From Rhodohalobacter sp. SW132 (GTDB lineage Bacteria; Bacteroidota; Rhodothermia; Balneolales; Balneolaceae): a stretch of DNA of 64,000 bases. The position numbers and the translations under genes are program-made. Below are positions 10,709 to 54,505 of the stretch, one piece after another. The stretch covers positions 1-64,000 of the forward strand of contig NZ_QUOK01000014.1 in the NCBI RefSeq assembly GCF_003390325.1, in the 5' to 3' direction. Under the pieces are notes generated by a model that did no database searches, had not been told where the DNA came from, and was given only the letters and a program-made list of their open reading frames with translations. Numbering within the stretch: the stretch's first letter is position 1; every line of letters begins with the position of its first letter.

Positions 10709-11923
10709 TTGCCAAACACCCGCAACATATTGATTACCCGTGAGCTGACCAATTCGCAGCGTTCTCTTGCTGATGATCTTGGGTTGAGCGTTACCGAAGA
10801 ACCTGCTCTCACAATTGAATTCAGAAGCAACTGGCTCTCTGTGCAGCGTATTCTGGATGAATCAAAAAAAGTAGTGTTTGCTTTCACCAGCCGGAATGGT
10901 GTAAAAGGATTTGATCAGTTCAGGCAGGCTGGTGTACGGTTTCCAGAAAATACACCAGTTTACGCGGTTGGCGGAAAGACAGCCGAGACGCTGAAAGATA
11001 TCGGTTTCGATGATGTGTCTGTCCCCGATCAACAGGATGGAGTCGGGCTTGCTCATCTAATCATTGATGATTTTTTGAAGATGCCTGAACTAAAAGATAC
11101 CACGGTACTTCATTTTTGCGGAGACAAAAGGCGGGATGAACTTCGTCACTATCTCACAGAATCGGAAATCGATATAAAAGATATTGTTGTATATGCAACT
11201 AAGCTGAATCAAATGAAGCTTCCATCAGAACCTGTCGACGGAATCTTGTTCTACAGCCCAAGTTCCGTACAGGCCTTTCGCCAAAGCGGCGGGTTTCGCC
11301 AGCCTGAACTTCCGGAACTCTTCGCCATTGGCTCGACCACGGCAGAGGAGCTAAGCATCGAATCAGGCCGTCACGTACACATCAGCCCTGAACCGGATAC
11401 GGTGGTTTTTTTAAGGTTTGTGGCAAGGGTTTTGGGGGAAACTGGCAATAAGCCAGTTGAGGAGTGTACCCCTTTGAAGGGGGCAATGGGGGATGACACA
11501 AATCTCCACTACAACAAAAGCCTCAAAGAACTGGCCCAAAAACTCCGAAACAACTCCACAAAAGCAGAAATTCGGCTATGGACCGAACTGTTCCGAGGTA
11601 AACAAACCGGATACACAATTCTGCGTCAGCGGCCCGTACTTAATTATATAGCAGATTTTCTTTGTAAAGATTTAAAACTGATCATTGAATTAGATGGGTT
11701 TTCACACGAGTTTGAACAACAGTGGAAAAAGGATAAAAAGAGACAGACTGAGCTTGAAGATGCTGGTTTCAAAATCCTCAAGTTTTCTGATGATGAAGTG
11801 ATGAAAGACTTAAGAAATGTAGAAAGTGAAATAATGCACTGGATTGAAAAGCTTGAATCTAATAAAGGTGATGATTCTAGTCCCCCTTTGAAGGGGGAAA
11901 GCACCCAAGGTGCAGGGGGATGA
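10709..11923 (+). CDS. hemD: Uroporphyrinogen-III synthase fused in frame to a DUF559 nuclease-like domain
   Basis: Residues about 1-245 are uroporphyrinogen-III synthase (NTRNILITRELTNSQ start, AFTSRNGVKGF, YAVGGKTAETL, FYSPSSVQAF, ELFAIGSTTAEEL), which cyclises hydroxymethylbilane. The frame then runs without a stop through a REP-like palindrome into a DUF559 domain (residues 260-404: KLRNNSTKAEIRLWTELFRG, YIADFLCKDLKLIIELDGFS, GFKILKFSDDEVM), a Vsr/PD-(D/E)XK-like fold. A TTG at 10709 with an AGGA-type site just upstream is chosen because homology starts there. The DUF559 part has its own ATG at 11486, inside the palindrome, so it may be made as a fusion, separately, or both. hemD proper looks intact. 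Confidence 0.88.
   Translation: MPNTRNILITRELTNSQRSLADDLGLSVTEEPALTIEFRSNWLSVQRILDESKKVVFAFTSRNGVKGFDQFRQAGVRFPENTPVYAVGGKTAETLKDIGFDDVSVPDQQDGVGLAHLIIDDFLKMPELKDTTVLHFCGDKRRDELRHYLTESEIDIKDIVVYATKLNQMKLPSEPVDGILFYSPSSVQAFRQSGGFRQPELPELFAIGSTTAEELSIESGRHVHISPEPDTVVFLRFVARVLGETGNKPVEECTPLKGAMGDDTNLHYNKSLKELAQKLRNNSTKAEIRLWTELFRGKQTGYTILRQRPVLNYIADFLCKDLKLIIELDGFSHEFEQQWKKDKKRQTELEDAGFKILKFSDDEVMKDLRNVESEIMHWIEKLESNKGDDSSPPLKGESTQGAGG
11464..11496 (+). repeat. REP-like palindrome, left copy
   Basis: Stem CCCCTTTGAAGGGG followed by the conserved tail GGGGGATGA, the pattern shared by the REP-like family in this window. It supplies the in-frame junction between hemD and DUF559 and contains the ATG (11486) of the nuclease frame. 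Confidence 0.8.
11880..11923 (+). repeat. REP-like palindrome, middle copy
   Basis: Perfect stem CCCCCTTTGAAGGGGG, a second small hairpin GCACCCAAGGTGC (11901-11913), and the family tail GGGGGATGA, whose final TGA is the stop codon of the hemD-DUF559 frame. It has the same orientation as the left copy. Confidence 0.8.
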
Positions 11924-11978
11924 CCAGCAAGGTCTTAAACCCTTTAACAATTTCCATTTAGATTCACCGCTCCGATTA

Positions 11979-12011
11979 TCATCCCCCATTGCCCCCTTCC
12001 AAGGGGGACAC
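11979..12011 (-). repeat. REP-like palindrome, right inverted copy
   Basis: Reverse complement of the left copy with two differences in 33 positions. It closes the DUF559 unit just upstream of hemE. Confidence 0.8.
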
Positions 12012-12032
12012 TTCGAAATTAATTACAAAACT

Positions 12033-12044: not shown

Positions 12045-13088
12045 ATGCCCCACAACTTCCCAAAACTTAAAAACGACCTATTCCTCCGCGCACTGAAAGG
12101 TGAAGAGGTAGAACGCCCGCCAGTATGGATGATGCGTCAGGCCGGGCGGTATTTACCGCAGTATATGGTTCTTCGCCGGAAATACACGTTCTTTGAACGG
12201 GTGGAAACTCCTGAGCTGGCGTGTGAAATCACCCTGCAGCCGATTGATGAACTGGAGCCGGATGCGGCCATTATTTTCTCCGATATTCTCACCATCCCGC
12301 AGGCGCTTGGGATTGATGTGGATCTTGTAAAAGGAAAAGGACCTGTCCTGGAAAACAACATCAAAACGGTTGATGATGCGTTTTCCATTCTGGCTGAGGA
12401 TGTGCCTCAAAAGCTGGATCACGTTATGAAGGCGATCACGCTTACCCGTCATGAACTCAACGGTCGTGTTCCGTTAATTGGCTTTGGCGGAGCACCGTGG
12501 ACCCTTTTCTGCTACATGGTTCAGGGCGAAGGCTCAAAGACATTCGACAAAGCCAAGGCGTTTCTCTATCAGCATCCAGATGCTGCGCGACATGTGATGA
12601 AAGAGCTGACAAAAGCTACCATCGACTACCTGCAGGCGCAGGTGGAGGCGGGCGCCCAGGCGATCCAGGTGTTTGATTCATGGAGCGGACTTCTGAGTCC
12701 AGACGATTTTAACGAATGGGCGATGCCCTACTTGATGGAGATCACGCAGTCGATCAAGGATGTGCCGGTCATTCTTTTTGCGAAAGGATCGTGGTACGCA
12801 CTGGAGCGGCTGAGCTACAAAAGCGGTGCTGCTGCTCTTGGAATTGACTGGACCATCAGTCCGGAGTTTGCCCGCGAAAAAACCCGCAATGATATAACAC
12901 TGCAGGGAAATTTTGATCCCGTCAGACTCCTCTCCCCGATCCCTGAAATTGAACGCCAGACCAAACGAATGATCGACCGTTTTGGCACACAGAGATACAT
13001 CGCCAACCTCGGTCACGGAATTCTGCCACACATTCCCGTTGATCACGCCCGCGCGTTTGTGGATACGGTGAAGGGGTATGGGGGATAG
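12045..13088 (+). CDS. hemE: Uroporphyrinogen decarboxylase
   Basis: Decarboxylates the four acetate side chains of uroporphyrinogen III to give coproporphyrinogen III. The two family signatures are present: PPVWMMRQAGRYLPQY near residue 26 and GFGGAPWTLFCYMVQG near residue 146. The conserved Asp follows in IIFSDILTIPQALG. Length (347) is typical. It is in the same orientation as the rest of the heme run but separated from hemD by the tail of the DUF559 element. Its TAG stop is the first part of a heptanucleotide repeat tract. Confidence 0.97.
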   Translation: MPHNFPKLKNDLFLRALKGEEVERPPVWMMRQAGRYLPQYMVLRRKYTFFERVETPELACEITLQPIDELEPDAAIIFSDILTIPQALGIDVDLVKGKGPVLENNIKTVDDAFSILAEDVPQKLDHVMKAITLTRHELNGRVPLIGFGGAPWTLFCYMVQGEGSKTFDKAKAFLYQHPDAARHVMKELTKATIDYLQAQVEAGAQAIQVFDSWSGLLSPDDFNEWAMPYLMEITQSIKDVPVILFAKGSWYALERLSYKSGAAALGIDWTISPEFAREKTRNDITLQGNFDPVRLLSPIPEIERQTKRMIDRFGTQRYIANLGHGILPHIPVDHARAFVDTVKGYGG

Positions 13089-44650: not shown

Positions 44651-44847
44651 TTATAAGTTTTAACCTGAGTTCGATTGTTAAATTATGAATGTAAAAGTCC
44701 CCCTTAAAAAAGGGGGATTGAGGGGGATGTTCACCAAATCTTGGTAAAAACCAATGGACACCCCTCTAAATCTCCCCTTGTTAGGGGAGACTTCTTAATG
44801 GCTAATTCAAAAAGAGTATAAATCGAACTCAGCTTTATAAGTTTTAA
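44651..44847. mobile_element. MITE-like element with REP palindromes, terminal inverted repeats and flanking direct repeats
   Basis: The 13-base sequence TTATAAGTTTTAA flanks the element directly at 44651-44663 and 44835-44847. Inside, CTGAGTTCGATT (44665-44676) pairs with AATCGAACTCAG (44821-44832), a 12-bp terminal inverted repeat. The interior holds a forward REP-like unit (44697-44729, stem CCCCCTT / AAGGGGG, tail GGGGGATG) and an inverted one (44756-44793). There is no coding capacity. This is the layout expected of a non-autonomous insertion. Confidence 0.7.
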
Positions 44848-54230: not shown

Positions 54231-54505
54231 TCAATAGAGGCTGTGAGAATTTACCCTCTCATTTGAGGCATTCATTATTTTTTAAGGTATGAAAGCTTGT
54301 ATTAAAGCTCCTCTCCCTATCAAGTCCTGTTAGGGCACGATAGGGAGGGGGCGGGGGAGGGTCAGAAACTCCAGGGAGCTGAGAAAATGGCTGAAATCTT
54401 AATTTATTTAAGTGCATTTTCTTTGGAAAACAGTTTCCTCACAACCTTAATATAGGGGGATGTTCATCAAAAAACATTTCTGTATCAGGAATCAAATGCG
54501 ATGTA
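54192..54505. other. Intergenic region with REP-like palindrome
   Basis: No gene. After the repeat end at 54189-54230, a REP-like unit lies at 54308-54364: stem CTCCCTATC / GATAGGGAG followed by the G-rich tail GGGGGAGGGTC. Confidence 0.5.

Follow-up and report, generated by a model that had tools for sequence, protein, structure and literature searches.

The question raised by this locus is whether the product of a small DUF559 gene, which lies between inverted copies of a palindromic repeat and in one open frame with hemD, acts on those repeats and spreads them, in the way that RAYT transposases are thought to spread REPs. An earlier note on the window (the whole 64,000-nt stretch of DNA that was analysed) had proposed that it might, and its description of the locus holds. 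The hemD gene, encoding uroporphyrinogen-III synthase (10712-11462, plus strand; Pfam HEM4 at residues 21-229 of the product of 10712-11920), is an open frame that runs on without a stop, as the note had said, through the left repeat into the DUF559 gene, and this single frame is matched by both HEM4 (E 9.8e-34) and DUF559 (E 4.9e-28). The DUF559 endonuclease-fold gene (11486-11923, plus strand) would encode 145 aa if the ATG within the repeat is its start, and matches Pfam PF04480 with an E of 5.8e-29 and 100.6 bits, against a curated cut-off of 20.6. As had been described, its ATG (11486) is inside the left repeat and its TGA (11921-11923) ends the tail of a middle repeat, and the outer arms, at 11463-11496 and 11979-12012, are inverted and near-identical (34 nt, 94% complementary in the repeat search). 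The right-hand neighbour is hemE (12045-13088, plus strand), which we used as an anchor for empty-site comparison.

The window repeat is built of a C/G hairpin (CCCCCTT..AAGGGGG) and a G-rich tail, GGGGGATGA, with either a short loop or an accessory hairpin between them. The left copy (11463-11496, plus strand) is a short arm, with hairpin CCCCTTTGAAGGGG, a loop and the tail directed towards the DUF559 gene; the consensus of its class was built from copies across the genome. The middle copy (11880-11923, plus strand; detected in the repeat search of the window as a third copy at 11880-11900) is a long arm, with hairpin TCCCCCTTTGAAGGGGGA, accessory hairpin GCACCCAAGGTGC (11901-11913) and tail AGGGGGATGA, and the right copy (11979-12012, minus strand) is a short arm that reads tail TCATCCCCC, loop, hairpin CCCCCTTCCAAGGGGG. 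Middle and right copies together form an inverted pair 3′ of the gene, one arm long (accessory hairpin) and the other short (CAAT loop), around a spacer at 11924-11978; this order of long arm, ~50 nt and short arm is that of the gene-less copies. Folded as plain single-stranded DNA, the short arms gave weak z-scores (-0.9 and -1.4); triplexes are not modelled by ordinary folding. The palindromes that the note had placed at 44.7 kb, and others at ~54.45 kb, do exist, but they are not copies of the window class, as both hairpin and tail differ, and they belong instead to a related class. The former is a gene-less inverted pair (44699-44790) with tail GGGGGATGTTCACC; this pair and the repeat at ~54452-54465, also gene-less, are of the second class, whose cognate-type nuclease is the DUF559 gene L042 of a sister species in the genus (loci are numbered L and genomes G). 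The genome of the window has four DUF559 genes, and none of them is of the L042 type.

In the 5.08-Mb host genome a pattern scan found 63 copies of the hairpin CCCCTTNNAAGGGG, against none of the same pattern reversed. About 35 of these 63 places were inspected, and mostly they hold the asymmetric pair (long arm, ~50 nt, short arm) without a gene, though singles also occur; gene-less inverted pairs greatly exceed nuclease genes in number. Each of the four DUF559 genes of the genome is bordered on both sides by its own class of repeat, which is GGGGGATGA for two of the genes, CAGGGGTGGGTC for one and CAGGGGTGTGTCC for one, the last two classes having just a few copies each in this genome. Many of the pairs (L225, L229-L239) are embedded in a larger repeat of ~330 bp, which starts near TGAACTACCTCGGGGCAGAGCCC and ends near CCACTTATGATTAA, and which also exists with a single central hairpin (L230, L236).

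The arrangement in the window is the rule in its GTDB family, for which genomes were taken one per species. DUF559 is present in 65 of 92 genomes, and most of the genes are flanked by repeat copies: matching repeats stand on both sides of 74 of 94 (79%) when the 450 nt on either side are compared, against 5.6% with flanks swapped between genes, 2.4% for windows 500 nt further out, and one of 97 ordinary genes picked at random places in these genomes. G+C-rich palindromes are found on both sides of 59 of the 94 DUF559 genes and of none of 83 controls, and the ordinary genes gave no palindrome pair. Random genes were used here because hemE loci make a poor control, other repeats adjoining hemE in the family (8 of 22). 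Repeats of an unrelated type, CACAGATTAACACAGAT, flank hemE on both sides in another genus (L060, L071, L075, L076, L078). In the family the repeats that flank DUF559 genes are often in direct rather than inverted orientation. The finding that the earlier note had named as speaking against it, DUF559 genes with no palindrome nearby, is represented by just one gene (L117) among 89 stand-alone family DUF559 genes, which has neither a nearby palindrome nor a matching repeat.

Beyond the family, we examined 80 further loci from Bacteroidota, Chlorobi/Ignavibacteria, Planctomycetota, Acidobacteriota, Cyanobacteria, Nitrospirota and others. A G+C-rich palindrome was present on at least one side in 65 of 74 testable loci, as against 16 of 182 in-locus controls, and on both sides in 25 loci, as against no controls. 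By inspection, 14 loci from a plasmid collection (Proteobacteria, Deinococcus, Cyanobacteria; some of the records are really chromosomes) have the same arrangement, perfect or degenerate. Locus counts include orthologues and so are not all independent, which makes the quoted p-values too small. The association of nuclease and repeat is itself established by the counts, and the pattern in the window is far beyond chance; a chance origin of the gene-repeat arrangement was ruled out by the reversed-pattern count, the swapped flanks and the control genes. In three species (L028, L045, L081) a repeat-DUF559-repeat unit lies in frame, at the same position, inside a restriction-modification methyltransferase-type gene, and there the repeats encode peptides such as LSPSPLTRGRGVGE. 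Of the cyanobacterial loci, L282 is within a large DUF559-annotated gene and L271 is beside the BREX gene pglX.

When genes at non-orthologous sites are compared in pairs, the flanks have a repeat in common in 64% of cases if protein identity is above 70%, in 32% if it is 60-70% and in ~1% if it is below 50%, and the Mantel correlation of nuclease with repeat is 0.58, where permutation gave a maximum of 0.05. On these sequence comparisons, repeat class follows nuclease clade. Of the 15 genomes that encode a close homologue of the window nuclease, 14 have the window-class repeat, against 13 of the 74 that do not, and in the best-sampled genus the counts are 7 of 7 against 8 of 20; the genomes compared are related, so that p-values overstate the certainty here. 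Some nuclease-free genomes (G069, G072) retain many repeats, which suggests that repeats either outlive the enzyme or have another source.

A second correspondence is that between the tail of the repeat and its hairpin. Under the purine-motif triplex rule the third strand is a mirror image of the purine arm, G lying on G and either A or T on A, and in most classes the tail does follow its purine arm in this way: AGAGGGG goes with GGGGTGT, AAGGGGG with GGGGGAT and GGAGGAGA with AGAGGTGG. A perfect third strand was present on the 3′ side in 36% of 535 hairpin orientations (the true rate per hairpin is higher, since perfect palindromes were counted in both orientations and a tail is possible in one); the figure was 1.3% for the 5′ side, 4.6% when tails of other classes were used and 1.3% for shuffled tails. 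The strict form of the motif, with seven perfect triads, lies beside the DUF559 gene in 79 of 94 family loci, 51 of 74 broad-set loci and 10 of 14 plasmid-collection loci, so that 15 of the family loci and 23 of the broad set are without it; in controls it was seen at one of 95 genes, in no shuffled sequence and at none of 14 Y1-transposase loci. In the window both the middle and the right repeat carry the strict motif, the right one on the minus strand, and satisfy the order of pyrimidine arm, loop, purine arm, loop and purine third strand; the second loop of some arms exceeds the 1-6 nt permitted by the published triplex finder. Comparison between classes thus shows the tail to covary with the hairpin as a triplex would require, and we infer that repeats of the window class may form one. 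In E. coli, the triplex of the TM_ECO repeats is supported by CD and NMR (PMC4666352). The triplex-type tail motif, and the wide spread of the system, had been overlooked in the earlier note.

What kind of enzyme would meet such a structure? The AlphaFold model of the DUF559 protein has a confident core (pLDDT 80.5), and the nearest solved folds are 3hrl (Z 14.6), I-Bth0305I (3r3p_A; Z 11.9, rmsd 2.6 over 95 residues) and Vsr (1cw0; Z 9.5). Catalytic-type residues E, D, E, D and H are present, and all five are kept in 163 of 168 sequences, so that activity is probably under selection. A Pfam scan of the window nuclease returned DUF559 and MTES_1575 only, with no Y1/HUH domain (PF01797). Vsr is a repair nuclease; it shares the fold, but differs in its mismatch repair role beside Dcm and in having no repeat partner. 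NGO0050 (PDB 3hrl), which also shares the fold, is itself of DUF559 type; to judge by its position, a gonococcal DUF559 gene near 49.6 kb that has repeats of the CCCTCTCC type on either side probably encodes this protein.

We propose that the DUF559 nuclease works on, and disperses, the triplex-type repeat that goes with it, like REP/RAYT but with an unrelated enzyme, a reading to which we would assign a probability of about two in three. The system would have two parts, a small DUF559 nuclease (with the Vsr/EDxHD-homing-endonuclease fold) and a cognate C/G-rich hairpin repeat, whose G-rich tail would lie back on the hairpin as a third strand, giving an intrastrand purine-motif triplex. The nuclease might recognise the folded repeat (triplex or hairpin), probably when this is single-stranded during replication or repair, and nick or cut it; repair, or copying from another repeat, could then disperse singles, pairs and gene-carrying units, and the same process could also remove units, leaving a single hairpin behind.

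Sites at which close relatives differ bear on this proposal. Empty insertion sites in close relatives had been named by the earlier note as support, and they were found between hemD and hemE and upstream of pgk. At the hemD-hemE site G065 is filled and G060 has a single hairpin, in genomes whose hemE DNA is 96.3% identical; the two share sequence on either side of the site (75 nt on the left, 31 nt on the right), and between these shared anchors G065 has hairpin-tail-gene-tail-hairpin (689 nt) and G060 one hairpin (130 nt), which, as this “empty” site keeps a hairpin, may show loss rather than gain. Other species have either nothing between hemD and hemE or a gene-less pair (G048, G050). Upstream of pgk, a pair-gene-pair unit is present in G027 and G023 and absent from G030 (PGK 94% identical), where the empty site is without a hairpin; nor was the unit found there in six more species of the genus. 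The unit has also been duplicated inside a single genome, G017, where two identical copies lie 3,251 bp apart in unrelated surroundings. In another genus the hemE-hemF junction holds a window-class unit, which in four species (L064, L067, L073, L074) is joined in frame to the start of hemF. No target-site duplication was evident by eye at the two presence/absence sites, whose boundaries have diverged by some bases. To judge from such sites, the repeat-gene-repeat unit behaves like a repeat-spreading unit.

One alternative is that DUF559 is a free-standing, homing-type selfish gene, which would cut a palindromic empty site and be copied in by break repair, the repeats being both its recognition site and its borders and the gene-less copies by-products or decayed forms. 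The presence of I-Bth0305I among the nearest folds fits with this, as do the single-palindrome and palindrome-gene-palindrome alleles of G060 and G065, the alternation of one hairpin with hairpin-spacer-hairpin in the paralogous repeats of the host genome, and the units in frame inside restriction-modification genes. I-Bth0305I (EDxHD family, PDB 3r3p) is alike in its catalytic fold and in having its nuclease gene copied in at a fixed site; in the window no intron or intein host was seen, and DUF559 units differ in having repeats on both sides and in their many gene-less copies. We consider homing unlikely, because filled sites have intact hairpins on both sides and would therefore stay unprotected from cutting, because gene-less inverted pairs far exceed genes, and because the empty pgk site of G030 has no hairpin.

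The open hemD-DUF559 frame arose when a repeat inserted at the hemD stop codon. In L051 and L077, relatives which lack the nuclease gene, hemD still reads through the repeat pair, so it was the repeat that took away the stop codon. HemD terminates ahead of the repeat in G065, G076 and G055, and the long fused frame was found only in the window genome and G059. A functional HemD-DUF559 fusion was considered and rejected, since HemD is extended by the repeat even where there is no nuclease gene, and those three genomes do not have the fusion. The fusion has no evident function and is a by-product of the insertion. Thus, of what had been claimed for the fusion, the open frame stands, whereas its place in the system does not: it is neither fixed nor needed, and is a side effect of the lost stop. 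A fixed, vertically inherited fusion, the second finding that the note had named as speaking against it, was not seen, as empty or repeat-only orthologous sites exist. The note's central idea, that a REP and an enzyme of nuclease fold make up a pair comparable to REP/RAYT, is supported, and has outlasted both of the observations that were to count against it.

The same pairing is present in E. coli. The DUF559 gene of strain K-12 is ycjD, whose stop is followed, at a distance of 167 nt, by a motif of the published TM_ECO pattern (1351204-1351239); the end of ycjD is itself within a degenerate repeat copy. This motif is entry 9 in the table of a paper in which ycjD is unmentioned (PMC4666352). 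With 23 motifs in 4.64 Mb, the chance of one so close to a given gene is ~0.0025. BoxC/PIT/TM_ECO repeats are widespread, and activities giving genetic mobility were never found nearby (PMC4666352). They are like the window class in having a hairpin with a G-rich third strand, and copy no. 9 adjoins ycjD; they differ in having been described without an associated mobility gene, and the window arms (CCCCCTT/AAGGGGG), with their longer second loop or accessory hairpin, do not fit the exact TM_ECO pattern of CCCTCNCCC N3-6 GGGNGAGGG N3 GGGNGAGGG. In E. coli the two members of a close inverted pair are always of different types, one A and one B, matching the short-arm/long-arm pairs of the window class, and where such a pair is partly lost a stem-loop remains (PMC4666352); these type A/B pairs and stem-loop remnants resemble our asymmetric arms and the single hairpin of G060. 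It is a wider claim, and one on which we are evenly balanced, that DUF559 proteins including YcjD are triplex-dedicated, structure-specific nucleases and the missing makers and spreaders of BoxC, PIT and triplex repeats across bacteria, through a triplex-recognising, transposition-like process whose enzyme would be unrelated to known transposases.

Of the matched E. coli genomes, 3,364 of 5,358 hold ycjD. In a spread sample (60 of 5,382 records), TM-like places counted by BLAST numbered 11-27 per genome (median 17) in 37 genomes with ycjD against 1-18 (median 4) in 23 without, and four or fewer places were found in none of the former and 12 of the latter, a comparison confounded by lineage; several genomes without ycjD retain 10-18 copies. 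The idea that E. coli without ycjD simply have an empty site was discarded, as in the three that were read (L305, L306, L307) the genes after fabI are those of a TetR regulator and an RND efflux adaptor, in place of ycjD-sapF. These data bear also on the possibility that DUF559 is a host enzyme which processes or resolves triplex or hairpin structures, in the interests of stability or regulation, and does not spread them. Such a role would be in keeping with the fold shared with Vsr, with the position of ycjD, stable across thousands of E. coli genomes, and with the instability of TM loci in that species (PMC4666352). We think it improbable, however: the gene travels with its repeats (G017 and the pgk site), genomes without ycjD tend to have fewer repeats rather than more, and a housekeeping processor would need no clade-specific repeat class.

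Our preferred reading, of a nuclease that spreads its cognate repeat, places the system close to REP/REPIN-RAYT (PMC2817692, PMC3116915), in which, too, the gene lies between often-inverted repeats, each enzyme clade has its own class of repeat, singles and inverted pairs without a gene are dispersed over the genome, and repeat presence tracks the enzyme gene. It differs in the enzyme, which is Y1-HUH in RAYTs and has a Vsr/PD-(D/E)XK-type fold in DUF559; in the repeat, as the window copies and others of their class, read directly, have no GT(A/G)G head; in the tail, which is a mirror third strand; and in that the flanking repeats are often direct. Might it nevertheless be a Y1 (HUH) transposase that moves the repeats, as ordinary REPs, with the DUF559 genes as trapped passengers? 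Y1_Tnp genes are present in 63 of 89 family genomes (six in the host genome), and 11 of 14 Y1 loci have flanking repeats of their own. The Y1 genes L243-L248 and L249-L258, with their own flanking repeats of other sequence, make a RAYT-type positive control. Yet none of the Y1 loci examined has the window repeat class or the strict triplex motif, G013 has DUF559 and its repeats with no Y1 gene, and a passenger would neither track repeat class by clade nor keep its catalytic residues so consistently, all of which makes this explanation very unlikely. That the repeats are recombination hot spots, among which short DUF559 genes are shuffled by homologous recombination, is hardly credible, for although the repeats are multicopy and direct-orientation flanking pairs are common, the enrichment between them is of DUF559 only (other genes, 1 of 97) and the match of class with clade is specific.

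One Rfam family may have a place here. Whalefall-1 (RF01762) matches the repeats flanking the DUF559 gene L037 (1355-1412 and 1989-2046, at 54.7 and 52.5 bits), the other nine of ten loci scanned having no Rfam match at the gathering score. This family differs from our repeats in having been published as a noncoding RNA, known solely from a whale-fall metagenome, and the match at L037 suggests that it may be a DNA repeat of this kind instead. The repeats, the DUF559 family and REP/RAYT were each known before; what is new here is the pairing of DUF559 with the repeats, and the triplex rule. Among open papers, none of those that name DUF559 describes these repeats.

The finding names a candidate enzyme family for BoxC-type repeats, which are present in hundreds of genomes and have long been unexplained, and it places one such pair, ycjD with TM_ECO no. 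9, in E. coli K-12. If our proposal is true, some annotated noncoding RNA (whalefall-1) and the repeat-encoded peptides would, we suggest, be traces of the system. It would also mean that bacteria hold a second, independently evolved answer to the REP/RAYT problem, and it would give DUF559 a function. The DUF559-repeat pair is found across much of bacteria, E. coli included, and could explain the origin of BoxC-type repeats.
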